From assembly GCA_020622165.1 (NCBI GenBank), contig JACNMN010000003.1:1-64000 (forward strand): a DNA stretch of 64,000 bases, read 5' to 3'. Below the pieces are notes generated by a model. It ran no database searches. It was not told where the DNA came from and saw only the letters and a program-made list of their open reading frames with translations. This DNA is from Boseongicola sp. H5 (GTDB lineage: Bacteria > Pseudomonadota > Alphaproteobacteria > Rhodobacterales > Rhodobacteraceae). Position numbers and translations under genes: made by a program. Shown one piece after another: positions 4,447 through 60,352 of the stretch. Position 1 is the stretch's first letter, and each line of letters opens with the position of its first letter.

Positions 4447-5604
4447 TTAGGGGCATTGCCCCGTGCAAATCTTTGCCCACCTCTCCATCAATGGCCGCCT
4501 CTGATCCAGGAAGTCGGTCTTGCGATAAGTCCGCACGACCTTGCTGTCTGAGACATGTGCCAGCACCATCTCGGCGACCTCATGTGGCGCGTCCGTCTGG
4601 TCTGCGAGCCAAGTGCGCAGGCTTGTTCTGAAGCCATGCGGGCGGGCCTCAAGCTCCCTGCGTTCCATCAGCCGCGCCATCGTCGCATCGCTGATGACCC
4701 CCTTGCGGACAGAGGGAAACAGATACCCGTCGCGCTCGTAGGGACGGGCAAGCTCGATAACACGTTGTGCCTCTTCGCTGATGGGGACGCGGAAGTCCTC
4801 CGCAGCGCCGAGACGTGCCTTCATATTGTTCGCGGGCACGGTCCAAATATTGCCGTCGATTTCTTCCAGCCGCGCAAACCGCACAGGCCGCGAGCGAAGC
4901 CCTGTAAGGATGAGCAGTCGCAGCGCGAGATGTGTGATCGTTGGCTCCCCGATGGAGGCGTAGAACGCCGGGACATCCTCCCACGGCATACTCGGGATCG
5001 ACGTGACCTGGTGCCGCTGCCGCCCCAAGAGCTGCTTCGCCTTGGCAACCGCCTGCAAGTCGACATCGAGGCCCAGAGCAGCTGCGTGATCCAGAACGAT
5101 CTTGAGGCGATTGGCGGCCTTCTTGGCAGTTGCAGCCTTGGCATGCCAGATCGGGGCCAAGGCGTCCCGGACATCGCTTTGGGTGATCTCGGTGACGGGC
5201 ATGCGTCCAAGTTTGGGCAACACGTGACGTTCCAACGGGCTATACCATCGTCCCGCAGTCCCGTCCCCCTTAAGGTCGGCCTTGCGGCTCTCGAAGGCGT
5301 CCAACGCGACATCCCTTAAGAGGTGGCGGTTGCGCATGGCGTCTTGGCGTTGCCTGCGCCGATGCTCAATGGGGTCCTTGCCTTTTGCGACCATAGTTCG
5401 ATACTCGGAGGCGACGTCCCGAGCATCCTTCAGGGAGAGAGCCTTCAGGCCGCCGAGACCCATCTCTCGGCGTCGCCCGTAAAGGGTATAGCGGAAGACC
5501 CATTGACCGCCGCCATCCTTGCGCTTGATCAGGCGCAGCCCATCGCCATCCTCATGCTTGCCGGGTGGCGCGGATTTGATGAAAAGGGCTGTTAGGTTCC
5601 TCAC
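4447..5604 (-). CDS. P4-type tyrosine integrase
   Basis: A 385-residue site-specific recombinase. The N-terminal DUF4102-like domain (about residues 1-85) is followed by a SAM-like core-binding domain and a catalytic domain with TGLRS (R237), HGFR (H323, R326), LAHVSDSK (H350) and nucleophile Tyr360 in VVRTYRKTD, so all key residues except the weakly conserved Lys are visible. GTG at 5604 is preferred because GGGGGA sits 7 bases upstream; an in-frame GTG at 5631 adds nine residues but has no clear ribosome binding site. It probably integrated the element carrying traA/C/D. No tRNA gene is adjacent, so the target differs from the usual P4-type tRNA site or has been lost. Confidence 0.93.
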   Translation of the reverse strand: MRNLTALFIKSAPPGKHEDGDGLRLIKRKDGGGQWVFRYTLYGRRREMGLGGLKALSLKDARDVASEYRTMVAKGKDPIEHRRRQRQDAMRNRHLLRDVALDAFESRKADLKGDGTAGRWYSPLERHVLPKLGRMPVTEITQSDVRDALAPIWHAKAATAKKAANRLKIVLDHAAALGLDVDLQAVAKAKQLLGRQRHQVTSIPSMPWEDVPAFYASIGEPTITHLALRLLILTGLRSRPVRFARLEEIDGNIWTVPANNMKARLGAAEDFRVPISEEAQRVIELARPYERDGYLFPSVRKGVISDATMARLMERRELEARPHGFRTSLRTWLADQTDAPHEVAEMVLAHVSDSKVVRTYRKTDFLDQRRPLMERWAKICTGQCP

Positions 5605-5605
5605 A

Positions 5606-5630
5606 AAAATATCCCCCAAATTATCCCCCA
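5606..5630 (-). repeat. Tandem GGGGGATA(A/T)TTT repeat at the integrase start
   Basis: On the minus strand, two copies of GGGGGATA followed by T-rich bases occur about 13 bases apart just before the GTG at 5604. The proximal copy is the likely Shine-Dalgarno. The duplication could be an autoregulatory operator or part of the attachment/arm-site region; this is inferred from position only. Confidence 0.4.
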
Positions 5631-5631
5631 C

Positions 5632-6020
5632 AAGCTGCCGGATTTACTAGGATGGCGCAACATCTCTTGGGAGTGTCGTTCCAGGAAAACACATTCATTC
5701 CAAGCGTCTAAGATACTATATGGGGTCTTCTGAGACTGCAATGCCATGCCGCCCCCGGGCACCACGTTTCCTGCCATCGAAACCACGATGTCTCAACAAG
5801 CACCGCTTCCTCCGGGTCTGACCTGCCTTTGACCAGCGTTTCGGGCCGCGCAATGGCAGTTCGTCTCCGCCCCTTGTCATCGGGCGGGGATGTCCACAAT
5901 GTGCGACGGCGGGGATACGCATGGGCGGATGCCGCGCCGGAACGTGGAGGGGAGACGCCAGATGATCGGAAATAAGCGATTTTCGCAGGCTGTGCCCGGA
6001 AAACCGGCGGGCCGCCTGTC
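5632..6020. other. Intergenic region between integrase and soeA; no gene recognised
   Basis: About 390 bases. The right boundary of the integrated element should lie here, since the integrase is the last element gene, but the matching repeat at the left end is outside the window. No tRNA-like sequence is visible. Promoters for the leftward integrase and for soeA are expected; no convincing -35/-10 pair stands out. Confidence 0.4.
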
Positions 6021-8858
6021 GTGAGCGCGAAGCAACCCTTTCTGGAGACCTCCCCCCGGGTTTCGGACGAGGTTCGCAAGACCACCTGCTACATGTGCGC
6101 CTGCCGCTGCGGCATCGATGTGCATCTGCGCGCGGATGCCGACGGTGTTCCCCGGATCCGCTATATCGAAGGCAACCGCGATCATCCGGTGAACCGGGGC
6201 GTGCTGTGCGCGAAAGGCTCCGCCGGGATCATGCAGCATTACGCTCCCGCACGGCTGAAGGCACCGCTCAAGCGCGTGGGGCCGCGCGGCTCGGGCCGGT
6301 TCGAGGAGATCGGCTGGGAGGAGGCGATGGAGATCGCCGTCTCATGGCTGAAACCGATCCGCGAGAAGGACCCGAAGAAACTGGCCTTATTCACCGGCCG
6401 TGACCAGAGCCAGAGCTTCACCGGCTGGTGGGCGCAGCAATACGGAACGCCGAATTATGCTGCCCATGGCGGGTTCTGTTCGGTCAACATGGCGGCGGCC
6501 GGTATCTACACGATGGGCGGCGCGTTCTGGGAGTTCGGCTCCCCGGATTGGGACCGCACGAGGATGTTCATGATCTTCGGTGTCGCCGAGGATCACGACA
6601 GCAACCCGATCAAGATGGGTCTGGGAAAGCTGAAGGCGCGCGGGGCCAAGGTGGTTGCCGTCAACCCGGTGCGCTCGGGGTACAATGCGATTGCCGATGA
6701 ATGGGTGGGGATCACGCCGGGTACGGACGGGTTGTTCATTCTTGCGCTGATCCACGAGCTGTTGCGGTCGGGTCATGTCGATCTCGACTACCTGCTGCGC
6801 TACACGAACGCGCCGCATCTGGTGGTGCAGAACGATGGCGGGCCCGATCACGGACTGATCGCGCGAAACGAAGCCGGGGAACCGCTGGTCTGGGACCGGG
6901 AGGAGCATCGCGCGCGCGGCTGGACGGAGATCTCGACCAAAGCCGCGCTGCACGGTGAGGTGACGCTGCCCGACGGGCGAAGTGCGGTCCCGTCCTTCGA
7001 CCTGCTGGCCCGGCGGTATCTGGGGGCGGAATATGCGCCCGAGGCGGTGGCCGAGCGGACGGGTGTGCCAGCGGAAACCATCCGCCGGTTGGCCGCAGAA
7101 CTGGCGCGCACCGCCTTCGACGAGGCGATCACGCTCGATCAGCCCTGGACCGATATGCGCGGCGAGCGTCATGCCACGATGATCGGCCGGCCGGTCAGCT
7201 TTCATGCGATGCGGGGCATCTCGGCCCATTCCAACGGGTTTCAGACGGCACGCGCGCTGCACCTGCTGCAAATCCTGCTGGGCGCGGTCGAATGCCCGGG
7301 CGGGTTCCGCTTCAAGCCGCCTTACCCCAAGCCCGTTCTGGCCCACCCCACGCCGCATAGCGAAGCCCATCCGAACGCGCCGCTGGCGGGCCCGCATCTG
7401 GGCTATCCAAGGGGGCCGGAGGATTTGCGCCTGGACAAGGACGGTCATCCCGAACGGATCGACAAGGCCTTCACATGGGAGGCGCCGCTGTCGGTTCACG
7501 GGCTGATGCATATGGTGATCTCGAACGCGGTCGCGGGCGACCCCTACGAGATCGACACGCTCTTTCTCTACATGGCGAACATGGCATGGAATTCGTCGAT
7601 GAATACCCGCGGCGTGATGGACATGCTGGAGGCCACAAACGCCGATGGCAGCTACAGGATTCCGCATATCATCTATTCCGATGCCTATTCGTCGGAAATG
7701 GTGGCCTATGCCGATCTGATCCTGCCGGACACGACCTATCTGGAGCGGCATGACTGCATCTCCTTGCTGGATCGCCCGATCTGCGAACCCGACGCGGTGG
7801 CCGACGCGATCCGCTGGCCGGTGGTGGAGCCGGACCGGGAGGTGCGAGGCTTTCAATCGGTATTGATCGATCTGGGCGCGCGGCTTGGCCTGCCGGGCTT
7901 CGTCACCGAGGCGGGCGATGCGGTTTACAGGGATTACGCGGATTACATCGTCAATCACCAGCGCAAGCCCGGTGTCGGGCCGCTGGCGGGCTGGCGGGGG
8001 GAGGGGGAGGATATCGGGCGCGGTCGGCCGAACCCCGATCAGCTGGACCGCTACATCGAGAATGGCGGCTTCTGGCAAAGCGATATTCCGGCCAACGCGC
8101 AGTTCTACAAAATGGCCAATCAGGCCTATCAGGATTGGGCCGTCGGGATGGGGTTTTACGATGCGCCGCAGCCCTATACCTTCGACATTTATGTCGAAAC
8201 CCTGCGCAAGTTCCAGTTGGCCGCCGAAGGCCATGGCGAGCGGCAGCCTCCGGAGCATCTGCGCGCGCAGGTGGCCCTGGCCTTCGATCCGCTTCCCGTC
8301 TGGTACCCGCCATTCGAGGGCGAGGCCGTGACCGGGGATTTCCCGCTTCACGCAATCACGCAGCGCCCGGCGGCGATGTACCATTCCTGGGGGTCCCAGA
8401 ATGCCTGGCTGCGGCAGATCCACGGGCAAAACCCGCTTTATGTGCCCGGGGAGGTGATGGAGAGCGCGGGCCTCACCGATGGCGGATGGGCCTGGGTGAT
8501 CTCGCATCACGGCAAGATCAAGGTGCCGGTGCGCCGGACCGATGCGGCCAATGGCAAGACGCTCTGGACCTGGAATGCCATCGGCAAGCGCAAGGGCGCC
8601 TGGGCGCTGTCGCCGGGCGCGCCCGAGGCGACGAAGGGGTTCTTGCTTAACCACCTCATCTCCGAGCTTCTTCCGCCCAAGGGCGACGGGCTGCGATGGG
8701 CCAATTCCGACCCGGTGACGGGGCAGGCGGCGTGGTACGATTTGCGGGTGCGGATCGAACCGGCCGAGGATGGCCCGCTCGACCCGCTGATGGACGCGCA
8801 GGACAGCCCCGTGGGGCGCGGCACCGGAGATGTGACCTACGGGGAGGAGTGGACATGA
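6021..8858 (+). CDS. soeA: Molybdopterin oxidoreductase, probable sulfite dehydrogenase (quinone) catalytic subunit SoeA
   Basis: A 945-residue DMSO-reductase-superfamily catalytic subunit. C23, C26, C30 and C63 bind a [4Fe-4S] cluster; the molybdopterin domains follow and a molydop-binding C-terminal domain starts near residue 760. There is no twin-arginine signal, so the enzyme should face the cytoplasm, as SoeABC does and PsrA/PhsA do not. It is followed by a four-cluster ferredoxin-like subunit and a DmsC-type anchor in the soeABC order. Proposed reaction: sulfite to sulfate with electrons to quinone. The GTG start has no strong ribosome binding site, but no alternative precedes the cysteine motif. 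Other cytoplasmic DMSO-reductase-like oxidoreductases remain possible. Confidence 0.75.
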   Translation: MSAKQPFLETSPRVSDEVRKTTCYMCACRCGIDVHLRADADGVPRIRYIEGNRDHPVNRGVLCAKGSAGIMQHYAPARLKAPLKRVGPRGSGRFEEIGWEEAMEIAVSWLKPIREKDPKKLALFTGRDQSQSFTGWWAQQYGTPNYAAHGGFCSVNMAAAGIYTMGGAFWEFGSPDWDRTRMFMIFGVAEDHDSNPIKMGLGKLKARGAKVVAVNPVRSGYNAIADEWVGITPGTDGLFILALIHELLRSGHVDLDYLLRYTNAPHLVVQNDGGPDHGLIARNEAGEPLVWDREEHRARGWTEISTKAALHGEVTLPDGRSAVPSFDLLARRYLGAEYAPEAVAERTGVPAETIRRLAAELARTAFDEAITLDQPWTDMRGERHATMIGRPVSFHAMRGISAHSNGFQTARALHLLQILLGAVECPGGFRFKPPYPKPVLAHPTPHSEAHPNAPLAGPHLGYPRGPEDLRLDKDGHPERIDKAFTWEAPLSVHGLMHMVISNAVAGDPYEIDTLFLYMANMAWNSSMNTRGVMDMLEATNADGSYRIPHIIYSDAYSSEMVAYADLILPDTTYLERHDCISLLDRPICEPDAVADAIRWPVVEPDREVRGFQSVLIDLGARLGLPGFVTEAGDAVYRDYADYIVNHQRKPGVGPLAGWRGEGEDIGRGRPNPDQLDRYIENGGFWQSDIPANAQFYKMANQAYQDWAVGMGFYDAPQPYTFDIYVETLRKFQLAAEGHGERQPPEHLRAQVALAFDPLPVWYPPFEGEAVTGDFPLHAITQRPAAMYHSWGSQNAWLRQIHGQNPLYVPGEVMESAGLTDGGWAWVISHHGKIKVPVRRTDAANGKTLWTWNAIGKRKGAWALSPGAPEATKGFLLNHLISELLPPKGDGLRWANSDPVTGQAAWYDLRVRIEPAEDGPLDPLMDAQDSPVGRGTGDVTYGEEWT

Positions 8859-9610
8859 CCTCTCTGCCTGCCTCGACCGGGGTGAAACTCGGCCTCGTGA
8901 TCGATCTGGATACCTGCGTCGGTTGCCATGCCTGCGTGATCTCCTGCAAGGAATGGAACACCGGCGGCTATGGCTCGGCCCTGGCCGATGCCGATGCCTA
9001 CGGCGATGCCCCGCTTGGCGCGTTCCTGAACCGGGTCCACACATTCGAGGTCAAGCCGGAGGAGGGCCCCGCCGCGGTCGTGCATTTCCCGAAATCCTGC
9101 CTGCATTGTGACGATGCGCCCTGCGTGACCGTCTGCCCGACGGGGGCCAGTTACAAACGCGTCGAAGACGGGATCGTGCTGGTCAATGAGGATGCATGCA
9201 TCGGCTGCGGCCTGTGCGCCTGGGCCTGTCCCTACGGCGCCCGGGAGATGGATCCGGTCGAAAAGGTCATGAAGAAATGCACCCTCTGCGTCGACCGGAT
9301 CTATAACGAGAACATCGTCGAGGAGGATCGGATTCCGTCCTGTGTGCGGACCTGCCCGGCCGGTGCGCGGCATTTCGGCGATCTGAACGATCCGGCCTCG
9401 GCCGTGTCCGAACTGGTGGCCGCGCGCGGCGGGTTCGACCTGATGCCGGAGCAGGGCACCGGACCGGTGAACAAATACCTGCCGCCCCGGCCCAGAACGC
9501 CCGAGCCCGTTCCTCATCTGCCCGATCTTGCCGATCTGGCGGCGGATGCGCGCGAGACACGGGCGGAGGGGTTCTTTGGCTGGCTGGACCGCGCGCTGGA
9601 GAGGCTCTGA
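8855..9610 (+). CDS. soeB: [4Fe-4S] electron-transfer subunit, SoeB/DmsB-like
   Basis: A 251-residue ferredoxin-type subunit with four cysteine clusters in order: CVGCHACVISCKEWN, CLHCDDAPCVTVCPTGA, CIGCGLCAWACPYGA and CTLC...CVRTCPAGA. It passes electrons between the molybdenum subunit and the membrane anchor. The ATG overlaps the soeA stop (ATGA) and is preceded by GGGGAGGAG. The stop overlaps the start of the anchor gene. There is no signal peptide, matching the cytoplasmic soeA product. Confidence 0.85.
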   Translation: MTSLPASTGVKLGLVIDLDTCVGCHACVISCKEWNTGGYGSALADADAYGDAPLGAFLNRVHTFEVKPEEGPAAVVHFPKSCLHCDDAPCVTVCPTGASYKRVEDGIVLVNEDACIGCGLCAWACPYGAREMDPVEKVMKKCTLCVDRIYNENIVEEDRIPSCVRTCPAGARHFGDLNDPASAVSELVAARGGFDLMPEQGTGPVNKYLPPRPRTPEPVPHLPDLADLAADARETRAEGFFGWLDRALERL

Positions 9611-10530
9611 TGCATCCGGCCTATTCGATCATCTTCTTCACGGTCAGTTCCGGCGCTGGTTTTGGCGTTCTTGCGGCGCTTGGTCTGGCTGCGTTTCTGG
9701 GCCTGACGCCGCAGGGGGGTCTCTATTGGGCCGGGTTCGTGATCGGCTTTGGCCTGTCCATGGCCGGTCTGGTATCCTCGACCTTCCATCTGGGCCATCC
9801 GGAGCGGGCATGGCGCGCGCTCAGCCAGTGGCGCAGCTCCTGGCTCTCGCGGGAGGGGGTGCTGGCCATCGTCGCGCTGGCCCTTGCCGGGGCCTTCGCG
9901 CTGAGCCTGCTGATGGGCGGGCAAGGGCGGCTACTGGGGCTGCTGACGGCGGCCTTTTCGCTGATCACGGTCTATTCCACCTCGATGATCTATGCGCAGC
10001 TGAAAACCGTGCAGCGCTGGTGCCAGCCACTGACGCCGGTGGTGTTTCTGTGCTTTTCGCTGGCCGGTGGCGCGCTGATCTACGCGTTTCTGGCGCAGGT
10101 CTTTGCCGGTGGCGCGGGCCTGTTACCGACCGTGGCGGCGCTGCTCGTGTTTCTGGCGTGGGGCGCAAAGCTCGGCTGGTGGCGCCGGGGGGATACGGCC
10201 CCGGTCCTGTCCACCCCGGAAAGCGCCACCGGTCTGGGCGCCATGGGCAAGGTGCGCATGCTGGAAGCCCCGCACACGGGCGGGAATTACCTGCTGAAGG
10301 AGATGGGCCACAAGATCGGGCGCAAGCATCAGGCCAAGCTGCGCCAGATCGCGCTGGTGCTGGGCGGGATCGTTCCGGTCTTCGCGACCCTGTTTGCATC
10401 CTGGGGCCTGTGGCCCGGGCTTTTTCTGCTTTTGGCCGTTCTTGCCTTTCTGGGCGGGCTTCTGGCCGAACGCTGGCTGTTCTTCGCCGAAGCGGAGCAC
10501 AGCGTGATGACCTATTACACCCGCGCCTAG
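9610..10530 (+). CDS. soeC: DmsC-family membrane anchor, SoeC-like
   Basis: A 306-residue hydrophobic protein with about eight predicted membrane helices, from MHPAYSIIFFTVSSGAGF to the helix ending ERWLFFAEAEHS. It belongs to the DmsC anchor family rather than the NrfD family, the anchor type seen in SoeABC. It would hold the soeAB products at the inner membrane face and transfer electrons to quinone. The start overlaps the soeB stop. The last four bases overlap, tail to tail, the stop of the dehalogenase gene on the other strand, so there is no room for a terminator. Confidence 0.85.
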   Translation: MHPAYSIIFFTVSSGAGFGVLAALGLAAFLGLTPQGGLYWAGFVIGFGLSMAGLVSSTFHLGHPERAWRALSQWRSSWLSREGVLAIVALALAGAFALSLLMGGQGRLLGLLTAAFSLITVYSTSMIYAQLKTVQRWCQPLTPVVFLCFSLAGGALIYAFLAQVFAGGAGLLPTVAALLVFLAWGAKLGWWRRGDTAPVLSTPESATGLGAMGKVRMLEAPHTGGNYLLKEMGHKIGRKHQAKLRQIALVLGGIVPVFATLFASWGLWPGLFLLLAVLAFLGGLLAERWLFFAEAEHSVMTYYTRA

Positions 10531-13500
10531 AGGTCGATTTCGACAATGCCTCCGGGCTCCGCCGCGCGGGATTGACACAAGATGATGCTGTGTTGCCGCT
10601 GCGCTTTCGACAGCACGAAATCCCTGTGCTCCACGGCGCCGGAAACCAGCCCGCATTTGCAGACGCCGCAGATCCCGTCGGAGCATTTCACATCCACATG
10701 AATGCCGTTTTCAGCCAGAACATCCGTGGCGGATCTCTCGGCCGGCACAAGCAGATCGCGCCCATCCCTGAGGCGCAGGATGAAATCGTGGTTCACATAG
10801 TCCGGCACCTCGGGGACCGAGAAGTATTCCAGATGCCGCGCCTCTTCGGGGATGCCGTGCGCCGTGGCGCTGTCGATCACGGCGCCCATGAATGTCTCGG
10901 GGCCGCAGGTATAGACATGGGTGCCTTCGGGGGCGGCGGCCATGATCGCATCCAGATCGGCCCGTGTGCCTTCGTCGGAGATATGAAGATGCAGGTTTGC
11001 GGCCCATTCCATTGCGGCCAGATCGTTCAGGAAACCCGCGCTGGCCCGTGATTTCGCGCAATAATGCAGGGCAAAGGGCCTGCCCAATGCATGCAGGCGA
11101 TGGGCCATGGCGATCATCGGCGTGATCCCGATGCCGCCGCCCATCAACAGGCTGAAGGGGGCCTGCTCCTCCAGCGGGAAGTGATTGATCGGCCGGGAGA
11201 TGAAAATCTGCCGCCCCTCGCTGAAAATGCGGTGCATCAGCCGGGAACCGCCCCGGCCCAGATCCTCCCGTAGGACGCCGATCTGGTACTTCGTGCGATC
11301 CGCGGGATCGCCGGACATGGAATACTGGCGCAGGAACTCCGGCGCCACGACAATGTCCAGATGCGCGCCCGCGGTCCATTCCGGCAACGCACCGCCATCG
11401 GCGGCGCGGAACTCGTATTTGGTGACCTCCGGTGTCATCGCCTCGGCCCCGGTCACCACGACCTGCAGGACCGGGCTGTCGCCATCGTTGGTGTAGCGAT
11501 GCACCACGCTGTCGTCCCCGCGGGCCAGACGGTCGCGATACTCTTCCGCGGTGATCATCGCCTGATAGGCTTCGATCCCCGCCTCGCGATCCATCGGGAA
11601 CGGGTAGGGATACGGATGCGGCGCCAGCGGGGCGGGGTAGACCGCCAGCGTCTGATCCTCGTATTTCAGGTTCAGATCGCGCTGCAGATCGCGGGCGTTG
11701 ACCGGATGCGACGCAGGGCCGTAACTGTCGTCTTCGCGCAGCTCCAGATCCCACCACCATTTCTTGACCGGGTTCAGCCCCCCGTTTCCCAGCGCGTCAT
11801 CGAGCCTGGCCAATGCGGGGGCCGTCGCCGGGATGTTCATCGCCGCCCATCGAAAGGGCTTTTCGGCAAACAGCCCCTCCAGGTTCCACGGACAGGTTTT
11901 CATGCAGCGGCCGCACATCGCCCCGCCAAGTGTGGTGATCCGGTAGCTGGCGCAGCGTTCGCTGTCCGATTTCCAGATTTCATAGCCGTTGAACATCAGC
12001 TTCGGGCCGGCGGTGATGGCCCCCGAGGGGCATTCGCGCGCGCATTTGTTGCAGCTTTCGCAGAACCGTTGCAGGCCGAAATCGATCGGCTTGTCATGGG
12101 CCATGGGCATATCGGTCGTCACCACGCCCGATTTCAGGCGGGGGCCAAGGAACGGGTTCAGGATGACCTCCCCGATGCGGGAGACCTCGCCCAGACCGCT
12201 CAGCAGCAACAGGGGCGGCTGCAACACCTCCCCGTCAAGCACCGTATGGGCCTTGGCGCTGTAGCCGAGATTTCTGATCTGCTTGGCGATGACGCCGCCC
12301 AGAAGCGAAAACCGCAGATAGGCGCGCATGGATTGCGCAACGCTGATCCAGTCATCGCCGGAGGCGCCTTCCATCGTCTCATAGCCCTGATCGATGATCA
12401 TGCTGATCGCCTGATCGTGGGGCGGTGTGATCGGGTCGCCGCGCGCGTCGTGGGAATACCATGTCCAGTCGGGGCAGCGGCTGATCCCGACGGCGTCGAT
12501 GCCCAGAAAATAGCTGGCCGCCTTGATCGCATCGGCATTGGCCTGGGGGTCGTCGGGGCGCGGCCCGTCTGCGGCCGGCCCGTCCTGCAACAGCACGAAT
12601 GCCCCCAACATCCGCCGCTGCGCCATGGAAGGTGCGGCCTTGCGCACGTAATAGCCGCCTTTCGCGGCGTTCTGATTGGCCTTGCCCATATCGCCGAACT
12701 GGGCGCGGGCAAACATATCCGAACGTTTGGGCACGCGGGCGACATTCGGTTCGTCGATATAGGTCGTGGGCGTGTCCACGCGCGTCAGCGTCTCGAACGG
12801 GTGCGGGCCGTCGGCGAAGTCGCGCCGCGCGAACGGGTCACGGTTCAGCGCGGATTTGGCGAACCCCTTGCCCAGCCACCAGGCCGGCCCCTTGGTTCTG
12901 AACCGGGGTTGCCGGGCCATCTGAGCCAGCGGCGCGTCAACGGTCAGATCGAATTCGGTGGTGATCGCGGCGATGCCGAAACGGCTGCCCAGATAGGGGT
13001 TTGCCAGCGTGCCATTCTCGACACTCGCAAGGCCCGCGGCCACGGCCAGAACGTTGAGGTCCACATCCGCGCTGGTGCCCGTATGCGCCTTGGCATCCCA
13101 GCCCAGAATGCGGATGTAATTGGCCAGCACCACGGCGGTTTCGGTTGCGCGCAAACAGGCGCGATGGGCCTGCGCATCGTCCAGCCAGCCCACCCCTTTC
13201 TCGTCCGAACGCGGGTCGCGCGGCATCTCGTAAAGAAAGACGATCGCGCGGGTATGGGCATCGATCGTGCTCGGCGGGGCCTCTACCGCGTCTTTCAGAT
13301 CGGCCATGATCATGTCGATGCCAGAGGCAAGCGTCTTGGTCTGCTTGGTGCGCAGATCATCGGCCAGCGCGTCGATGCCGGGGTTGCGATAGGGCTCCGC
13401 CAGGCGCGCCGCGGCGGGCAGCGGCCCGATCCCCACCATCGACGCGTCGGAGAAGTATCCGAACGCCTTCAGGTGGTTGGCACGTTCGGTCGGGTCATCC

Positions 13501-13733
13501 GGGCATACGGACCGGGACGCTGTCACCAGCCCGTCGCGGATGGCGTCCATCATCGCCTGATACTCCGTCATCGCATTGACGATGGAGGCGGGCGTATCGG
13601 GGCGCGTGAAGTCCAGAGGCACGAAGGGCGGCACGTGAGACAAATCCGGCATCGGGCCGCGGGCCAGCCGTTCCATCGGGTAGGGGCCCATGTGAACCGG
13701 ACGGTTTGCATCGGAAAAGAAACGGATTGTCAT
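10527..13733 (-). CDS. rdhA: Self-sufficient reductive dehalogenase (corrinoid/Fe-S) fused to NAD(P)H-flavin-[2Fe-2S] reductase
   Basis: This 1068-residue protein has three visible parts. Residues about 160-550 are a duplicated corrinoid-type region. Residues 558-568 (CESCNKCARECPS) plus C594, C607, C610 and C614 (CGRCMKTCPWN) are the two [4Fe-4S] motifs of reductive dehalogenases. Residues about 750-1068 are a phthalate-dioxygenase-reductase-like module: flavin site RQYSMSG (802-808), nucleotide motif GGGIGITP (865-872), and plant-type [2Fe-2S] ligands C1017, C1022, C1025 and C1053. There is no Tat signal or rdhB anchor. This is the architecture of BhbA-like catabolic dehalogenases, which reductively remove halide from halophenolic compounds in the aerobic cytosol; the substrate here is unknown. 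GGGAGG precedes the ATG. The gene is divergent from the Gfo/Idh operon. Confidence 0.88.
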   Translation of the reverse strand: MTIRFFSDANRPVHMGPYPMERLARGPMPDLSHVPPFVPLDFTRPDTPASIVNAMTEYQAMMDAIRDGLVTASRSVCPDDPTERANHLKAFGYFSDASMVGIGPLPAAARLAEPYRNPGIDALADDLRTKQTKTLASGIDMIMADLKDAVEAPPSTIDAHTRAIVFLYEMPRDPRSDEKGVGWLDDAQAHRACLRATETAVVLANYIRILGWDAKAHTGTSADVDLNVLAVAAGLASVENGTLANPYLGSRFGIAAITTEFDLTVDAPLAQMARQPRFRTKGPAWWLGKGFAKSALNRDPFARRDFADGPHPFETLTRVDTPTTYIDEPNVARVPKRSDMFARAQFGDMGKANQNAAKGGYYVRKAAPSMAQRRMLGAFVLLQDGPAADGPRPDDPQANADAIKAASYFLGIDAVGISRCPDWTWYSHDARGDPITPPHDQAISMIIDQGYETMEGASGDDWISVAQSMRAYLRFSLLGGVIAKQIRNLGYSAKAHTVLDGEVLQPPLLLLSGLGEVSRIGEVILNPFLGPRLKSGVVTTDMPMAHDKPIDFGLQRFCESCNKCARECPSGAITAGPKLMFNGYEIWKSDSERCASYRITTLGGAMCGRCMKTCPWNLEGLFAEKPFRWAAMNIPATAPALARLDDALGNGGLNPVKKWWWDLELREDDSYGPASHPVNARDLQRDLNLKYEDQTLAVYPAPLAPHPYPYPFPMDREAGIEAYQAMITAEEYRDRLARGDDSVVHRYTNDGDSPVLQVVVTGAEAMTPEVTKYEFRAADGGALPEWTAGAHLDIVVAPEFLRQYSMSGDPADRTKYQIGVLREDLGRGGSRLMHRIFSEGRQIFISRPINHFPLEEQAPFSLLMGGGIGITPMIAMAHRLHALGRPFALHYCAKSRASAGFLNDLAAMEWAANLHLHISDEGTRADLDAIMAAAPEGTHVYTCGPETFMGAVIDSATAHGIPEEARHLEYFSVPEVPDYVNHDFILRLRDGRDLLVPAERSATDVLAENGIHVDVKCSDGICGVCKCGLVSGAVEHRDFVLSKAQRQHSIILCQSRAAEPGGIVEIDL

Positions 13734-13809
13734 GAACGATAGTGCCTCCCTCGGGGCGGACTATTGCGCGAACCGGGGCCGTGTTCCAGTGCCTGAGCCA
13801 AGAAAGCGG

Positions 13810-13852
13810 TTGACGGGTCAGCCAAATCGGATCAACTTAATGGAACGTTCCA
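13810..13852 (+). promoter_or_regulatory. Promoter with LacI-type operator TGGAACGTTCCA upstream of the Gfo/Idh operon
   Basis: A -35-like TTGACG (13810-13815) is followed about 20 bases later by an AT-rich -10-like element (CTTAAT), then a perfect 12-base palindrome with central CG (13841-13852). Placement over the expected transcription start suits repression. A near-identical palindrome lies before the GMC operon at 24341. The likeliest binder is the LacI protein encoded at 29388. Confidence 0.6.
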
Positions 13853-13902
13853 AAAAAGCCGGCCAGACTGGCCACGCGGAGCGAAAGGGGAGGATGATGC
13901 CG

Positions 13903-14904
13903 ATGAAATGGGGTCTGATCGGGGCCAGTACGATTGCGGCCGAGCGCATGATCGAGGCGTTCCGCTCCGTGTCCGGCGAGGGTGCGGTGACCCATGTCCT
14001 GTCCTCCAGCCCCGAGCGGGCGGAAAGCTATGCCGCCGAACACGGCATCGCCCATGGGGGCAGCGATCTGGAGGCGCTGCTGGCCGGGGATATCGATGCT
14101 GTCTACATCTCCACCACCAATGAAAAGCATTTCAGTCAGGCCATGGCCGCCATCGCGGCGGGCAAGCATGTCTTGTGCGAAAAGCCGCTGGCGATGACCG
14201 TCGCGGATGCGGTGACCATGGTGCGCGCCGCACAGAAGGCGGGCCTTGTCTTTGCCACCAATCATCATCTGCGCAACGCCGGCAGCCATCTGGCCATTCG
14301 GGAGGCCGTGCGGGCCGGCCGCGTCGGCGATGTGTTGAGCGTGCGCGTTTTCCACGCCGTCTATCTCCCCCCGCATCTGCAGGGCTGGCGGCTGGACAAG
14401 CCCGAGGCCGGCGGCGGCGTGATCGCGGATATCGTGGTTCATGACGCCGATACCGTGCGGTTCCATCTGGGGGAGGATCCCGTGGATGTGGTCGCGATGG
14501 CAAGCAGCGCGGGCATGGGCAAGGGCGTCGAAGACAGCGCGATGTCGGTCTGGTCCATGCCGTCGGGCGCGATGGTGCAGACCCATGAAAGCTTCACCCA
14601 TCGCTTTGCCAGAAGCGGGTTTCAGGTCCACGGAACGAAGGGCTCCATCGTCGCCACCGACGTGATGACGCAAGGCGCCGTCGGCGAGATCGTCCTGACC
14701 ACCGAAGCCGGAGCGGAAACGCTGCCCTATGACACGCATGATCTCTATCGGCGTTCGGTCGGCTTGTTCTGCGATGCGGTGGCCGGGCAGGGTCGCCCTT
14801 CGGCTGACGGGGTGGACGGCGTGAAATCCCTCGCCGTGGCCGCCGCTGTCGCGAAGGCGGCGGAAACCGGGCGGCGCGTTGCCGTCGACTACGGAGGCAT
14901 TTGA
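13903..14904 (+). CDS. Gfo/Idh/MocA-family NAD(P)-dependent oxidoreductase
   Basis: A 333-residue cytoplasmic dehydrogenase. The N-terminal Rossmann domain opens MKWGLIGASTIA; the family motif is EKP at residues 93-95 with Lys94 catalytic; the C-terminal alpha/beta domain carries HDADTVRFHLGEDP with the candidate catalytic His. Such enzymes oxidise a sugar, cyclitol or sugar-acid hydroxyl, often at C3 or C1. The start at 13903 is chosen because GGGAGG ends 9 bases upstream; ATGs at 13894 and 13897 are too close. It is first in a four-gene operon with CoA-transferase, enoyl-CoA hydratase and ALDH. The substrate cannot be read from sequence. Confidence 0.85.
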   Translation: MKWGLIGASTIAAERMIEAFRSVSGEGAVTHVLSSSPERAESYAAEHGIAHGGSDLEALLAGDIDAVYISTTNEKHFSQAMAAIAAGKHVLCEKPLAMTVADAVTMVRAAQKAGLVFATNHHLRNAGSHLAIREAVRAGRVGDVLSVRVFHAVYLPPHLQGWRLDKPEAGGGVIADIVVHDADTVRFHLGEDPVDVVAMASSAGMGKGVEDSAMSVWSMPSGAMVQTHESFTHRFARSGFQVHGTKGSIVATDVMTQGAVGEIVLTTEAGAETLPYDTHDLYRRSVGLFCDAVAGQGRPSADGVDGVKSLAVAAAVAKAAETGRRVAVDYGGI

Positions 14905-14907
14905 GCC

Positions 14908-16479
14908 ATGGGCAAGATCGTTTCCGGGGCCGAGGCCGTGGCGCATATCGGGGATGGCGCGGTGGTGACTGTATCGTCCTCCTCGGCACTCGGGTGCCCG
15001 GATGCGGTGTTGGAGGCGCTTGGCGCGCGGTTCAGGGACGAGGGGCATCCGCGTGGCCTGACCACCATCCACCCGATCGCGGCGGGCGACATGTACGGGG
15101 TCAAGGGGGTCGATCATATCGCGCAGGACGGTCTGCTGGCGACGATCATCGGCGGGTCCTATCCTTCGGGTCCTTCCAACCTGCCGATGCCCGCGATCTG
15201 GCAGATGATCGTGGAAAACCGGGTTGCGGCCTACAATGTCCCCTCGGGCATCCTTTTCGACATGCATCGCGACGTGGCCGCACGCAAACCGGGCGTGCTG
15301 ACCAAGGTGGGGCTGGAGACGTTTGTCGACCCGCTCCGCGAGGGGTGTGCGATGAACGATGTCGCGGTGGGCCGGAGCATTGTGGAACGGGCGGAATTCG
15401 GCGGGGAAACATGGCTGCATTTCCCGAATATCGTGCCAGATGTCGCGATCATCCGGGCAACGACGGCGGATGAACACGGCAATCTGACCTACGAACATGA
15501 AGGCGCCACCCTTGGTGCGCTTGATCAGGCGATTGCCGTGCGAAACCATGGCGGCCTTGTGATCGCGCAGGTCAAGCGGGTCACCGCGGCGGGGTCGCTC
15601 CGGCCCCATGACGTGCATGTGCCGGGGCATCTGGTGGACATGATCGTGGTGGCCCCCGGTCAGAAACAGACCACCGAAACGCTCTATGACCCGGCGATCT
15701 CGGGGGAGATCATGCGGCCATGGGACAGCTTCGCCCGGGCCGAACATAATGTGGAGAAGGTCATCGCGCGCCGCGCCGCGATGGAGCTGCGGGCGGGACA
15801 GACCGCCAATCTGGGCTTCGGCATTTCGGCGATCGTGCCCCGGATCCTGTTGGAGGAAGGTCAGGCGCAGGCCGTGACCTGGGCCATCGAACAGGGGGCG
15901 GTCGGGGGTATGCCGTTGACCGGGTTCGCCTTTGGCTGCGCCTCGAATGCCCATGCCTTCGTGCCGTCACCGAACCAGTTCACCTATTTTCAGGGGGGCG
16001 GGTTCGACATGTCTTTCCTCTCCTTTCTGGAGGTGGATGTGCAGGGCAATGTCAATGTCTCGAAGCTTGGGAAAAAACCTTATCTCACCGCAGGGTGCGG
16101 GGGGTTCGTGGACATCACGGCCCACGCGAGGAAGATCGTGTTTTCCGGATATTTCGAGGCCGGCGCGGAGCTGTCCCTGACGCCGGAGGCCATAAGCGTC
16201 ACCAGACCCGGCAAGTTCACCAAGATGGTCGAGGCGGTGGAACATGTCACCTTTGCCGGTCAGCGCGCGCTGCGGCAGGGGCAGGATGTGCTCTATGTGA
16301 CCGAGCGCTGCGTGATGCGACTGACCGAAACCGGGCTCGTGGCGACCGAGATCATGCCCGGCATCGATCCGGAGCGCGATATCGTGACGGCCTCCGAAGG
16401 GCGCGTCGCGGTCGCGGGCAATGCCAACCGGATGCCTGTGAGCCTGCTGTCGGAAACACCCATGGGGCTTGCGCTGTGA
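14908..16479 (+). CDS. Family I CoA-transferase (YdiF/propionate CoA-transferase-like, fused alpha and beta domains)
   Basis: A 523-residue protein with both CoA-transferase halves in one chain. The N-terminal half has IGDGAVVTVSS and glycine-rich PSG loops. The C-terminal half has IEQGAVGG with Glu328 as the expected residue forming the glutamyl-CoA thioester. Family role: move CoA from an acyl-CoA donor such as acetyl-CoA onto a carboxylate. It begins 3 bases after the Gfo/Idh stop, and its stop overlaps the hydratase GTG start, so the genes are tightly coupled. A CoA-activation step within a carbohydrate locus is unusual and suggests an organic-acid intermediate. Confidence 0.88.
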   Translation: MGKIVSGAEAVAHIGDGAVVTVSSSSALGCPDAVLEALGARFRDEGHPRGLTTIHPIAAGDMYGVKGVDHIAQDGLLATIIGGSYPSGPSNLPMPAIWQMIVENRVAAYNVPSGILFDMHRDVAARKPGVLTKVGLETFVDPLREGCAMNDVAVGRSIVERAEFGGETWLHFPNIVPDVAIIRATTADEHGNLTYEHEGATLGALDQAIAVRNHGGLVIAQVKRVTAAGSLRPHDVHVPGHLVDMIVVAPGQKQTTETLYDPAISGEIMRPWDSFARAEHNVEKVIARRAAMELRAGQTANLGFGISAIVPRILLEEGQAQAVTWAIEQGAVGGMPLTGFAFGCASNAHAFVPSPNQFTYFQGGGFDMSFLSFLEVDVQGNVNVSKLGKKPYLTAGCGGFVDITAHARKIVFSGYFEAGAELSLTPEAISVTRPGKFTKMVEAVEHVTFAGQRALRQGQDVLYVTERCVMRLTETGLVATEIMPGIDPERDIVTASEGRVAVAGNANRMPVSLLSETPMGLAL

Positions 16480-17240
16480 GCGCCGTTCATCTTCATCGGG
16501 GCGCGATCGCGCGGCTTGAGCTGGACAATCCGGGCAAGCTCAACGCCTTCACCCCCGACATGCTGGAGCAGTTGGAGAGCCATTGCGCGGCGCTGGACGC
16601 GGATCCCGCCGTGCTTGGGGTGCTGGTCACCGCGGCGCCGGCCAGAGCCTTTTGCGCGGGCGCGGATATCTCGGCCTGGGCCGGTCTTGCCCCCGCGGAG
16701 TTTGCCCGTCACTGGGTGCGTGACGGCCACCGGGTGTTCGACCGGCTTGCGCGACTGTCGAAACCCACGATTGCCGTGATCGGCGGCCATGCCTTCGGTG
16801 GCGGGCTGGAACTGTCGGCGGCGTGCGATGTTCGGGTAATGGCGACGGAGGCCAGACTTGGCCTGCCGGAAAGCTCGGTCGGGATCGTTCCGGGATGGTC
16901 CGGCACGCAGCGCCTGCTGCGTCTGGTGCCGGAACCGGTGGTCAAGGAGATGGCGCTGTTCGGGCGCCACCTGACGGCGGAGCGGGCGAGGGAGCTTGGC
17001 TTCGTGGCGGAGGTTGCGGCGGATCCGCTGGCCGCCGCAGAGGAGATCGCCGCGCGTCTGGCGCACACCAGCCCGCGGGCGACCGAGATTGCCAAATACC
17101 TGATCCACGCGGCCGCGGGCGAGGACCGGGCCGCGATGATCGAGGCTCTGGGTGGTGGCATGATCGCGGCCAGCGCCGACAAGGCCGAGGGCGTGGCCGC
17201 CTTTGCCGAGAAACGCAAACCTGAGTTCCCGGGGGTATGA
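16476..17240 (+). CDS. Enoyl-CoA hydratase/isomerase family protein
   Basis: A 254-residue crotonase-fold protein. ARLELDNPGKLNAF, the oxyanion-hole segment AFCAGADISAW and the HAFGGGLELSAACDVRVM segment are typical, and Glu-containing GLPESSVGIVPGWSGTQRL matches the active-site loop. The GTG start overlaps the CoA-transferase stop (GTGA). It likely hydrates, dehydrates or isomerises the CoA thioester made by the preceding gene product. The precise reaction within the superfamily cannot be assigned. Confidence 0.87.
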   Translation: MSAVHLHRGAIARLELDNPGKLNAFTPDMLEQLESHCAALDADPAVLGVLVTAAPARAFCAGADISAWAGLAPAEFARHWVRDGHRVFDRLARLSKPTIAVIGGHAFGGGLELSAACDVRVMATEARLGLPESSVGIVPGWSGTQRLLRLVPEPVVKEMALFGRHLTAERARELGFVAEVAADPLAAAEEIAARLAHTSPRATEIAKYLIHAAAGEDRAAMIEALGGGMIAASADKAEGVAAFAEKRKPEFPGV

Positions 17241-17241
17241 G

Positions 17242-18762
17242 ATGACGGAGTTTACCCTGATCCCGGCCTGCGGCGCCGCCATCCCGACCGACCCGTTCAT
17301 CGGGCAGCATCTGATCGATGGCGCGTGGGTGGGGAGCGCCGACGGCGCCGTGTTCGAGCGACACTCCCCGGCGCATGGCGATCTCGTCAGCCGATCCGCA
17401 CGGGGCGGCGGCGATGATATCGCGCGCGCGATTGCGGCGGCCAGACATGCCTTCGATGCGGGCGACTGGGCCGCCTCCCCGGGCGCGGCGCGGGCAAGGA
17501 TCCTGCTGAAAACCGCTGATCTGATAGACGAAAACCGCGAACGGATCGCGGTTCTGGAAACCCTGGAAAGCGGCAAGCCGATCACTCAGGCGCGCGCCGA
17601 AATCGAGGGCGCCGCCGATCTCTGGAGATATGCCGCCGCCCTTGCACGCACGCTGCATGGCGACAGCCATAACAGCCTGGGCCCCGATATGCTGGGCATG
17701 GTGCTGAAGGAGCCGGTGGGCGTGGTCTCGCTGATCACGCCATGGAATTTCCCCTTTCTGATCATAAGCCAGAAACTTCCCTTCGCGCTGGCCGCAGGCT
17801 GCACCGCGGTGGTGAAACCTTCGGAGATGACGCCCTCCACCACCGTGATCCTCGGCCAGTTGCTGCAACGGGCCGGCTTGGCCGACGGTGTGGTCAATAT
17901 CGTGCTGGGATACGGCGATCCGGTCGGGGCGCTGATGACCGGCGATGACAGGGTCGACATGGTGTCCTTCACCGGCTCCACCGCGGTCGGCAAGCAGATC
18001 GTCAGGACCGCGGCCGGGACGCTGAAAAAGGTCTCGCTGGAGCTTGGGGGCAAGAACCCGCAGGTGATTTTCCCCGACGCCGACCTTGAGGCCGCCGCCG
18101 ATGCCATCGTGTTCGGTGTCTATTTCAATGCGGGCGAATGCTGCAACTCCGGCAGCCGGATCATCGTGCATGAAGACGTGGCCGGGACGCTGACCGAAAT
18201 GGTCGTGGACGCGTCGCGCAAGGTGCCCTTCGGCGACCCGCTCGATCCCCGGACCAAGGTCGGCGCAATCATCTCGCCCGACCATCAGGCGAAGATCGCG
18301 GCCTATGTCCGGGATGCCGAGACCGCCGGGGCGCAGGTGGCGCTTGGCGGCAAGGCGCTGTCGATCGACGGTTTGGCGGGCCAGTTCCACGCCCCCACGA
18401 TCGTCACCGGCGTTACCCCCGACATGGCCATCGCCACCGAAGAGGTGTTCGGGCCGGTTCTGTCCGTCCTGACCTTCCGGACAATGGATCAGGCGATTTT
18501 GCTTGCCAATTCCGCGCCTTACGGGCTGTCGGCGGGGGTATGGAGCCGCGATGTCTACACCTGTCTTGAGTTCTCCCGCAGGGTTCGGGCCGGGACGGTC
18601 TGGACCAATACCTGGATGGATGGTTTTGCCGAGATGCCCTTCGGCGGGGTCAAGCAGAGCGGGCAGGGCCGGGAACTGGGCCGATACGGGATAGAGGAGT
18701 TCCTTGAGGTCAAATCCGTCCAGATGCGGATCGGCGACACCCGGCCGAGATGGGTGGCCTAA
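17242..18762 (+). CDS. NAD(P)-dependent aldehyde dehydrogenase
   Basis: A 506-residue ALDH-superfamily enzyme. Visible motifs are PWNFPF (coenzyme/active-site Asn), FTGSTAVGKQI, LELGGKNPQ with the general-base Glu, GECCNSG with catalytic Cys301, and EEVFGPVL. It oxidises an aldehyde, perhaps a glyceraldehyde-like or semialdehyde intermediate, to the acid. The start one base after the hydratase stop is preferred over an in-frame upstream ATG at 17203 lying within the hydratase gene. It is last in the operon; its stop overlaps the convergent lacI stop by 4 bases. Confidence 0.93.
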   Translation: MTEFTLIPACGAAIPTDPFIGQHLIDGAWVGSADGAVFERHSPAHGDLVSRSARGGGDDIARAIAAARHAFDAGDWAASPGAARARILLKTADLIDENRERIAVLETLESGKPITQARAEIEGAADLWRYAAALARTLHGDSHNSLGPDMLGMVLKEPVGVVSLITPWNFPFLIISQKLPFALAAGCTAVVKPSEMTPSTTVILGQLLQRAGLADGVVNIVLGYGDPVGALMTGDDRVDMVSFTGSTAVGKQIVRTAAGTLKKVSLELGGKNPQVIFPDADLEAAADAIVFGVYFNAGECCNSGSRIIVHEDVAGTLTEMVVDASRKVPFGDPLDPRTKVGAIISPDHQAKIAAYVRDAETAGAQVALGGKALSIDGLAGQFHAPTIVTGVTPDMAIATEEVFGPVLSVLTFRTMDQAILLANSAPYGLSAGVWSRDVYTCLEFSRRVRAGTVWTNTWMDGFAEMPFGGVKQSGQGRELGRYGIEEFLEVKSVQMRIGDTRPRWVA

Positions 18763-19805
18763 TGGTCGCTGTCGCCGCAAAATCCGGTGTCGGGGCGGAA
18801 CAGCACATTGAGCGCTTCCGGCGGCTCGCCCGCCATCCGGCGCAACAGCATCTCCGCCATCGCGCGGCCCGTGGCGCGCAGGTCTTCGAACACGGTCTCG
18901 ATCCGCGGACGGATATTGTCGAAGATGGGAGAGGCGCGTTTGGCCAGCACATCGGCCTCCACCCCCGGTGTCACGCCCACATCGCCAAGGGCCGTCAGCG
19001 TCACCAGCGCGGTCACCTCGCCCACGCAGATGTACCCGTCGGGCGGGTTCGGCCGATACCTTCGCCGCTTGGTGGCCTCCGCGATATCGGCGGTGGCGGA
19101 ATCGAGCGTCACGTCGGTGACGATCTCGTACTCGACACCGGTTTCCCGCACCGCGCTCATGAAGCCGTAGCGCAGATGCTGGGTGAAGGTGAACCGGTCC
19201 TCCGGCAGGATCAGGCTCAGCCGTCTGCGGCCCTTCTCGACCAGCCGGTGCACCGCCTTGCGGGCAAAGGTCTCGTTGTCGAAATCGACCCATGGATGGG
19301 GCGTGGTGAATTCGGTTCGGCCATGGCTGACAAAGGGAAACCCGTTCTCCATCATCAGCCGGACCCGGGGGTCGAAGCATTCCGTCCGGGTGAAGAGAAT
19401 GCCATCGGCCAGATTGTTGCGCAAAATGGTGCGCACCGGATCCAGCCGGTCCTTGCCGACCGTGTCGGGAACGACGGTGACGGAATAGCCCGTGCCGCGC
19501 AGGACGTCGGTGATGCCGGTCAGAAACTCATGGGTGAAGCCCAGAAACTCATGTTCGGTATTGAGCAGAAGGCTCACGACCTGCGTGCGCCCGGTGCGCA
19601 GCCGCCGTGCCGCGCGGTCGGGCACATAGCCCAGATTCTTCGCCGCAAGGGACACTTTTTCGCGGGTCGTCTTGGCGATTCGCGGGTCGTTGGCCAGCGC
19701 CCGCGACACGGTGGCCACGGCATATCCGGTCTGCTCCGCGATCGTTCGCAATGTCGGGCGTTCGCCGGGCGCAAGCGGCGCGGTCTCGTCGGTGTCCTTG
19801 GTCAT
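18759..19805 (-). CDS. LacI-family transcriptional regulator (ABC transporter locus)
   Basis: A 348-residue repressor. The N-terminal helix-turn-helix is TLRTIAEQTGYAVATVSRALANDP, followed by the hinge YVPDRAARRLRTG and a periplasmic-binding-protein-like sensor domain. It is divergent from the sugar ABC transporter operon. A perfect palindrome TTGAAACGTTTCAA lies 50 bases upstream of its own start and a related site overlaps the transporter promoter, so it most likely represses both. The ATG at 19805 is chosen over TTG at 19808. The effector is presumably the transported sugar or a derivative. Confidence 0.9.
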   Translation of the reverse strand: MTKDTDETAPLAPGERPTLRTIAEQTGYAVATVSRALANDPRIAKTTREKVSLAAKNLGYVPDRAARRLRTGRTQVVSLLLNTEHEFLGFTHEFLTGITDVLRGTGYSVTVVPDTVGKDRLDPVRTILRNNLADGILFTRTECFDPRVRLMMENGFPFVSHGRTEFTTPHPWVDFDNETFARKAVHRLVEKGRRRLSLILPEDRFTFTQHLRYGFMSAVRETGVEYEIVTDVTLDSATADIAEATKRRRYRPNPPDGYICVGEVTALVTLTALGDVGVTPGVEADVLAKRASPIFDNIRPRIETVFEDLRATGRAMAEMLLRRMAGEPPEALNVLFRPDTGFCGDSDH

Positions 19806-19854
19806 CAAGCCGGGGTGCTCCGCTGCGGAAGGCTTGGGTCACTATGGCGATTAT

Positions 19855-19868
19855 TTGAAACGTTTCAA
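19855..19868. promoter_or_regulatory. LacI-type operator TTGAAACGTTTCAA
   Basis: A perfect 14-base palindrome with the central CG typical of LacI-family operators, positioned just upstream of lacI. Likely autoregulatory site of the adjacent regulator. Confidence 0.7.
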
Positions 19869-24340: not shown

Positions 24341-24354
24341 TTGGAATGTTCCAA
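24341..24354 (+). promoter_or_regulatory. LacI-type operator TTGGAATGTTCCAA before the GMC oxidoreductase operon
   Basis: A 14-base palindrome (6 of 6 arm pairs, TG centre) ends 15 bases before the start of the first GMC gene. It shares the TGGAA/TTCCA arms with the site at 13841. It probably binds the LacI-family regulator encoded within this same operon at 29388. No clear -35/-10 could be identified. Confidence 0.6.
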
Positions 24355-58419: not shown

Positions 58420-58728
58420 ATATACCCTGCAGGATTAACGGCAGCTTTGTCCGCAGTGCCGACCTTCGCACGGATGGCGATGAAGCTCTGGTTTGGGCCG
58501 GAAACCCCTGATCCTTGGGCCGATACCGTGTGGCGCCGCCTCATTACAGCGATCAGACAACCCGCCCCATCCCGTCACAGATATGTGACGTTCTCCAGCG
58601 CCCGGAGACATCCGTGACGCGGAAGCGCGCCCGTCGCGGGGTTGGCGATCGGGCGGGTGGGGGATCCGCGACGATCCTGCGGGCAGACATGGCGTGCCTG
58701 CCGGGTGCATCCCGTGCCTGAAGGCGCG
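58420..58728. other. Convergent intergenic region with a perfect inverted repeat
   Basis: 309 bases between the stops of the GNAT gene and erpA. No gene is supported. It contains CGTCACA-GATA-TGTGACG (58573-58590), a perfect 7-base inverted repeat, whose placement between convergent genes suits a hairpin better than an operator. Confidence 0.45.
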
Positions 58729-59067
58729 CTACATGGAGAAGGACGTGCCGCACCCGCAGGATGACGAGGCGTTGGGGTTTTCGATGGTGAAGCGCGCCCC
58801 GATCAGTTCTTCGGAAAAATCGATCACCGCATCGGCCAGAAACGGCAGCGACACGCTGTCGACCACGACTTTCTGGCCGCCGCTCTCCAGCACCAGATCG
58901 TCTTCGGCCGGGTCGTCCAGCTTGATCTCGTACTGAAATCCGGAACATCCGCCGCCTTCCACGGCCACCCTCAGGGCCTTGGGCGTGTCCGTGTCTTCGT
59001 TGATTTCGGCCAGACGTTCAAAGGCGCGCGGGGTGACTTTGGGCGGAACGGTCAGGGTCAGGGTCAT
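58729..59067 (-). CDS. erpA: A-type iron-sulfur carrier/insertion protein ErpA
   Basis: A 112-residue HesB/IscA-type protein. The three conserved cysteines are in GGGCSGFQY and SSCGCGTSF, and the fold segments VPPKVTPRAFERLAEI and VVVDSVSLPFLADAVIDF match. It delivers Fe-S clusters to apo-enzymes, relevant for a cell with many Fe-S oxidoreductases. The start at 59067 begins the family N-terminus; the much longer open frame upstream is antisense to dgt. It is divergent from dgt, 78 bases apart. Confidence 0.9.
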   Translation of the reverse strand: MTLTLTVPPKVTPRAFERLAEINEDTDTPKALRVAVEGGGCSGFQYEIKLDDPAEDDLVLESGGQKVVVDSVSLPFLADAVIDFSEELIGARFTIENPNASSSCGCGTSFSM

Positions 59068-59145
59068 CTTTCGGGCTCCGGGCGGTGTCGCTTCGCTACG
59101 AAACTGAATATATGGGGCGCAAGGGGATGCCACAAGGAGGCGGCG

Positions 59146-60288: not shown

Positions 60289-60352
60289 AGGCAGCATTAT
60301 TGATCTTTTGGTGTTTTTGACCTATGTCTGAGTGGACGAAACAGGAGTTGAC

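Follow-up and report, generated by a model that had tools for sequence, protein, structure and literature searches.

A reductive dehalogenase that carries its own reductase raises the question of which halogenated compound it attacks and in what metabolic setting. Such an enzyme is encoded by a gene, rdhA, in the window, which is the whole stretch of 64,000 nucleotides analysed here (Boseongicola sp. H5, Rhodobacteraceae; contig JACNMN010000003.1, positions 1 to 64,000). The gene product (window RdhA) fuses a dehalogenase to a phthalate dioxygenase reductase (PDR) module. The reading proposed here, with a probability of roughly 0.8, is that the window RdhA is a cytosolic, self-sufficient dehalogenase of the BhbA/JtRdhA type that would act most likely on brominated 4-hydroxybenzoates or ortho-bromophenols, with a cobamide that is probably scavenged. 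The enzyme type is already known from BhbA and JtRdhA, and the window RdhA is another member. The additions of this analysis are the active-site residues, a count of the distribution, the context of pobA (4-hydroxybenzoate 3-monooxygenase) and ring-cleavage genes in relatives, the probable scavenging of the cobamide and a second debrominase-like gene in the same genome.

The reductive dehalogenase profile TIGR02486 (NCBIfam) matches the window RdhA with 210 bits (cut-off 160.35), the best stretch being residues 440-650. A search of solved structures placed the enzyme of Nitratireductor pacificus (NpRdhA; 4ras, 6zxu, 6zy1) on top with an E-value of about 1e-160, followed by P450 fusions and PDR over residues ~755-1059 and then by PceA. 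The identity to NpRdhA is 44% over 574 aligned residues and rises to 55% over residues 380-660. The phmmer alignment with NpRdhA covers two stretches of the window RdhA, 2-106 and 158-736, leaving residues ~107-157 unaligned. The C-terminal module matches the PDR structure 2pia (residues 755-1059, E 1.6e-51) and the Pfam family Fer2 (residues 995-1057), and its motifs RQYS, GGIGIT and GPETFM (802, 866 and 944) are presumably those of the flavin and NAD sites. The N-terminal 60 residues contain no RR pair of the kind expected in a twin-arginine translocation (Tat) signal, and nothing resembling a membrane segment was found in the protein, the highest 19-residue Kyte-Doolittle mean being 1.42, at the NAD-site motif. 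A first-pass annotation, made without database searches, had described a corrinoid-type catalytic region, a fused flavin-NAD(P)H-[2Fe-2S] reductase and the lack of a Tat signal; the profile, the structural matches, the four cysteines of the [2Fe-2S] motif and the missing RR pair bear these out, and the cysteines of both [4Fe-4S] motifs lie exactly where it had put them (Table 1). In class and architecture, both supported by these comparisons, the window RdhA is a putative catabolic, self-sufficient reductive dehalogenase of the BhbA/JtRdhA type.

The alignment with NpRdhA shows that the catalytic Y426, K488 and R552 of that enzyme correspond to Y472, K534 and R598 of the window RdhA, which corrects the earlier proposal of Y426 and K494 as candidates. 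Y426 of the window RdhA is invariant but aligned with Y379 of NpRdhA, and position 494 is lysine in 101 of 106 sequences and threonine in BhbA. Y472, K534, R598 and the 12 cluster cysteines (eight of the [4Fe-4S] and four of the [2Fe-2S] motifs) are each invariant in all 106 full-length sequences. This set consists of the window protein, BhbA, the relatives from the loci and plasmid records, with exact duplicates and matches of 900 or fewer aligned residues dropped. An AlphaFold2 model of the window RdhA (30 sequences) has a mean predicted local distance difference test score (pLDDT) of 71.9 and a predicted template modelling score of 0.68. The first 14 rows of its Foldseek comparison with the Protein Data Bank are NpRdhA chains (template modelling score ~0.8 by target length), including 6zy1 with bound 3-bromo-4-hydroxybenzoate, and the rows below are P450-reductase fusions and the PDR-type 2pia. 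The predicted model and the Foldseek matches support the fold of the window RdhA, not its active-site geometry.

Table 1. Coordinates of the dehalogenase gene, its parts and other features (window positions unless another contig is given)
Feature	Position	Strand	Basis or remark
rdhA-PDR fusion gene	10527..13733	minus	Open reading frame, 1068 aa, stop codon included
N-terminal duplicated (vestigial) corrinoid-fold region, residues 1-330	12744..13733	minus	Two-stretch NpRdhA alignment; repeated strand/helix pattern in model
Catalytic corrinoid region, residues 385-660	11754..12581	minus	TIGR02486 best stretch; NpRdhA identity
Y472 codon (NpRdhA Y426)	12318..12320	minus	NpRdhA alignment; invariant 106/106
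K534 codon (NpRdhA K488)	12132..12134	minus	NpRdhA alignment; invariant 106/106
R598 codon (NpRdhA R552)	11940..11942	minus	NpRdhA alignment; invariant 106/106
Two [4Fe-4S] motifs, C558/561/564/568 and C594/607/610/614, residues 558-617	11883..12062	minus	Pfam region; cysteine positions
PDR-type module, residues 755-1068	10530..11471	minus	2pia; Fer2; motifs RQYS 802, GGIGIT 866, GPETFM 944, then [2Fe-2S]
[2Fe-2S] motif, Cys 1017/1022/1025/1053, residues 1017-1053	10575..10685	minus	Cysteine positions
Second, short dehalogenase	G000 C34:355473-356345 (L003), outside window		403 aa from likely start
Three-subunit molybdoenzyme (PhsA-like, Fe-S and DmsC-type subunits)	6021-10530		Profile matches; ends tail to tail with rdhA
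Palindrome TGGAACGTTCCA	13841-13852		Upstream of Gfo/Idh/MocA gene (likely start 13894); kept in five genus genomes
Copy of TGGAACGTTCCA, 2 mismatches	19856-19867		Just upstream of LacI-like gene 18759-19808 (family by eye)
Copy of TGGAACGTTCCA, 1 mismatch	24342-24353
Integrase gene	4447-5631

In the proposed reaction, NAD(P)H would reduce the flavin of the C-terminal module, and the electrons would pass from the [2Fe-2S] cluster of the module by way of both [4Fe-4S] clusters to the base-off cobalamin of the catalytic half. There the enzyme would remove a halogen that stands ortho to the phenolic hydroxyl, the putative roles of proton donor and substrate clamp falling to Y472 and the K534/R598 pair. 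The most probable substrates would be 4-hydroxybenzoates carrying bromine (perhaps also iodine) and related ortho-bromophenols, all from marine sources, and the 4-hydroxybenzoate released could be passed through PobA to a protocatechuate dioxygenase, both encoded elsewhere in the genome. Genes for these steps are present: contig C2 carries pobA and pcaH side by side (58436-60351), and a weaker match after pcaH (60473-60976) is probably pcaG. HpaB has no match in the genome.

The preference for these substrates comes from the neighbours of rdhA in relatives. Relatives are encoded at 577 of the 590 pattern matches in genome contigs, and the flanks of the best 80 were searched with 14 query proteins, the nearest match per locus being kept. 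Because the flanks are short in many of these loci, the neighbour counts are lower bounds. The pobA gene is the immediate same-strand neighbour of rdhA in five loci, and the remaining 75 gave no match to it. It lies upstream and touches rdhA in a metagenome-assembled genome of Dinoroseobacter (L056), and in L098, L106, L116 and L117 it lies 7-9 bases downstream according to the open reading frame calls. All four scanned of these five proteins are above the cut-off of TIGR02360. Since L098, L106, L116 and L117 share one clade, the pairs represent at least two arrangements rather than five independent events. In L075, rdhA is followed by genes for a DUF1932 protein, a catechol-2,3-dioxygenase-like protein (306 bits, just below the cut-off of 320.2), a PIG-L protein, a LigK-type aldolase and a 4-oxalomesaconate tautomerase (aldolase and tautomerase scoring above their cut-offs); its sister in the tree, L079, has similar downstream genes judging by the sequence starts. 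On the OM-1 plasmid, pobA and dioxygenase genes are found within about 5 kb of rdhA and are read from the other strand. The BhbA gene is closely preceded on its plasmid, and on its own strand, by protocatechuate 4,5-dioxygenase genes. MarR, LysR and TRAP genes were rejected as a general rule for the neighbourhood, being found in 1, 2 and 10 of the 80 loci (TRAP directly upstream in three). The rdhA-pobA pairs therefore favour bromo-4-hydroxybenzoates and point to a candidate native substrate; judged by the neighbours in some relatives, brominated 4-hydroxybenzoates and related ortho-bromophenols would be the likeliest natural substrates. 3-Bromo-4-hydroxybenzoate is an intermediate of Bmp5-type dibromophenol synthesis. 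Marine bacteria are described as making dibromophenols from 4-hydroxybenzoate via Bmp5-type halogenases (PMC10579414, PMC7918430), a plausible natural source of the substrate.

The closest named relative of the window RdhA is the enzyme of Rhodophyticola porphyridii (97% identity). Within the genus, six of the seven genomes, this one included, encode a full-length version with 84% identity or more, and G005 has none. One of the six has an additional, second copy of 62% identity. In a tree of 106 proteins rooted on BhbA and the OM-1 protein, the genus copies group together except for this second copy, which forms a deep branch; families are mixed in the tree, in which the program flagged long branches, and the mixing is no proof of transfer. 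The second copy (L130; G001:C15, contig match 9859-13005) lies on an 18-kb contig, possibly a plasmid. Across the family, matches at E up to 0.001 occur in 320 of 394 genomes, in many cases covering the reductase or the core part only, and at least 149 of the 394, this one included, have matches at E = 0 (at least 53% identity, a few of them partial). The type is thus common, contrary to the first-pass annotation, which had counted it among a few known enzymes, and the strong matches suggest that reductive debromination under oxic conditions is nothing unusual in this bacterial family. The count puts a number on a distribution known so far in words, PMC13101508 having stated a wide occurrence of bhbA homologues across the Roseobacter clade.

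The genome was also analysed for the supply of the cofactor. Because CobQ is present, the sole match to the CobJ/CbiH model is far below the cut-off (68 vs. 246.35 bits) and CobN was not found, cobamide salvage is likely, and judging by this gene content the organism probably scavenges its cobamide. The single PF02514 protein is BchH, of the magnesium chelatase, and was ruled out as proof of B12 synthesis. Among the seven genus genomes, CobJ is above the cut-off in three (G001, G004 and G005), and four of the six rdhA carriers have no such match (G000, which is this genome, G002, G003 and the 89% complete G006). Since this rdhA carrier seems to lack genes for making the corrin ring, the availability of B12 may be one control on bromine turnover in the sea. 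A search of the genome with PF13486 (Dehalogenase) gave a single match beyond the window, a second, short dehalogenase that passes the cut-off of this family and scores 144.1 bits with TIGR02486, below 160.35. It is 64% identical to a 395-residue protein of strain MED193, whose two cluster motifs begin at residues 283 and 337, exactly as published for Ros_A3X954 (PMC13101508).

Several results weigh against the proposed function of the window RdhA. PF13486 is absent among the 13 Pfam families matching it at E up to 1. The pLDDT of the model falls below 50 at residues 553-597 and 604-622, around the clusters; because of this weakness the model was dropped as proof of active-site geometry and the catalytic residues were taken from the alignment. 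In the window and most of the genus, the neighbours of rdhA are not aromatic-pathway genes, and beyond rdhA no gene family occurs in more than 12 of 81 loci (the 80 relatives and the window). The pobA pairs are scarce, with four of the five coming from one nine-row clade in which five rows lack pobA, and queries with LigA, LigB, a type-III extradiol dioxygenase and PcaH found nothing in the flanks of the 80 loci. The differences in rdhA neighbours between lineages would fit a role in which the same chemistry serves mainly to detoxify or scavenge various bromophenols and iodophenols, not to support growth on brominated 4-hydroxybenzoate. The second dehalogenase, close to the 2,6-dibromophenol debrominase Ros_A3X954, agrees with such a role, as does the reported acceptance of 2,6-dibromophenol, iodophenols and bromoxynil by JtRdhA (PMC10463259). 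However, the JtRdhA rate on 2,6-dibromophenol is only 6.8% of its best rate in the same report, and some relatives have rdhA paired with pobA or with genes for ring cleavage. A main role in detoxification is thus considered possible but somewhat doubtful. The growth-linked reading can be extended, tentatively, to a widespread marine cross-feeding trait, in which alphaproteobacteria living near algae might use the fused enzyme, with cobamide scavenged from other organisms, to debrominate brominated 4-hydroxybenzoates and bromophenols produced by marine bacteria and algae and so turn chemical-defence compounds into food through PobA and protocatechuate.

Readings that would change the class of the enzyme are far less probable. 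The epoxyqueuosine reductases share the fold class, and their QueG model TIGR00276 gives a weak match of 26.9 bits. However, its cut-off is 200 bits, TIGR02486 exceeds its own cut-off and the Y/K/R residues of NpRdhA are kept in 106 of 106 sequences, making an epoxyqueuosine-reductase-like or other class-III B12 enzyme without dehalogenase activity very improbable. The first-pass annotation had named placement with these reductases as what would overturn its assignment; profile scores and the solved-structure search, rather than a tree, showed no such kinship. The core also matches PceA-type enzymes (4uqu, E 3e-30), as a respiratory organohalide reductase would, but the window RdhA has no Tat motif or membrane segment and has a fused NAD(P)H reductase and a duplicated domain, so that a respiratory role is the least probable of the alternatives considered.

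The surroundings of rdhA in the window were examined for further clues to the dehalogenase reading. The membrane protein adjoining rdhA (9610-10530) matches DmsC and belongs to a molybdoenzyme that is perhaps a SoeABC-type sulfite dehydrogenase. On the other side lie a divergent Gfo/Idh/MocA gene, a CoA transferase gene and, further out, an aldehyde dehydrogenase gene, with an enoyl-CoA-hydratase-like gene, called by eye, between the last two. Scans of 6021-10530, 13732-16479 and 17203-18762, with the other genes judged by eye, agreed with the earlier statement that no halogenated-aromatic pathway adjoins rdhA. Of the five genus loci that have long flanks, four keep the molybdoenzyme and Gfo/Idh/MocA surroundings and the remaining one is the 62% second copy; the short flanks of the 84% copy (G006) showed no alignment with the window. 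Since the PhsA/DmsC-type molybdoenzyme and the Gfo/Idh/MocA gene look unrelated to halo-aromatics, the genus neighbours were rejected as a clue to the substrate. Equivalence of the window Gfo/Idh/MocA gene with the gene beside rdhA on the OM-1 plasmid was also rejected (30% identity over 107 residues). The palindrome TGGAACGTTCCA was rejected as a shared operator upstream of rdhA, being restricted to 10 of 151 loci, which represent five genomes of the genus, this one included, and lying nearer the Gfo/Idh/MocA gene. Allowing up to two mismatches, the window holds three copies vs. a mean of 1.95, no excess over chance, and the best gapped palindrome common to the upstream regions of relatives reached 5 of 80. 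The similarity to the R. porphyridii relative ends at 5777, beyond the integrase gene (4447-5631), so that the contig start may be an inserted element.

Among the known systems, JtRdhA (WP_104007082) of the marine Jhaorihella thermophila was purified and described as a self-sufficient RdhA-PDOR fusion, driven by NADPH and tightly coupled in air (Fisher et al. 2023, PMC10463259). Its reported substrates are ortho-bromo- and iodophenols, with the fastest turnover on 3,5-dibromo-4-hydroxybenzoate and 3-bromo-4-hydroxyphenylacetate, whereas none of the chloro analogues tested was turned over; the parts of the report consulted do not discuss the natural substrate (PMC10463259). By the published description, JtRdhA shares with the window RdhA the duplicated domain, the PDOR fusion, the lack of a Tat signal and the equivalents of NpRdhA Y426, K488 and R552. 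An insertion compared with NpRdhA is also reported for JtRdhA, and residues ~107-157 of the window RdhA, which do not align with NpRdhA, are a candidate equivalent. In contrast to the window RdhA, JtRdhA is biochemically characterised. The likeness to BhbA and the Nitratireductor enzyme put forward in the first-pass annotation holds. BhbA (WP_015585978.1, plasmid pBHB of Comamonas sp. 7D-2) is 50% identical over the whole window RdhA, being a full-length fusion with the same catalytic and cluster residues, whereas its gene is plasmid-borne and stands beside the protocatechuate 4,5-dioxygenase genes. The accession is named as BhbA in PMC10463259, where the host is given as a soil bacterium degrading the herbicide bromoxynil. 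NpRdhA has the same Y/K/R triad but neither a fused reductase nor, in the alignment, a counterpart of residues ~107-157. Ros_A3X954 of the marine relative Roseobacter sp. MED193, described as a B12-dependent, oxygen-sensitive 2,6-dibromophenol debrominase (Li et al. 2026, PMC13101508), differs from the window RdhA in being short (395 residues) and unfused, and its 64% identical relative lies elsewhere in the Boseongicola genome.

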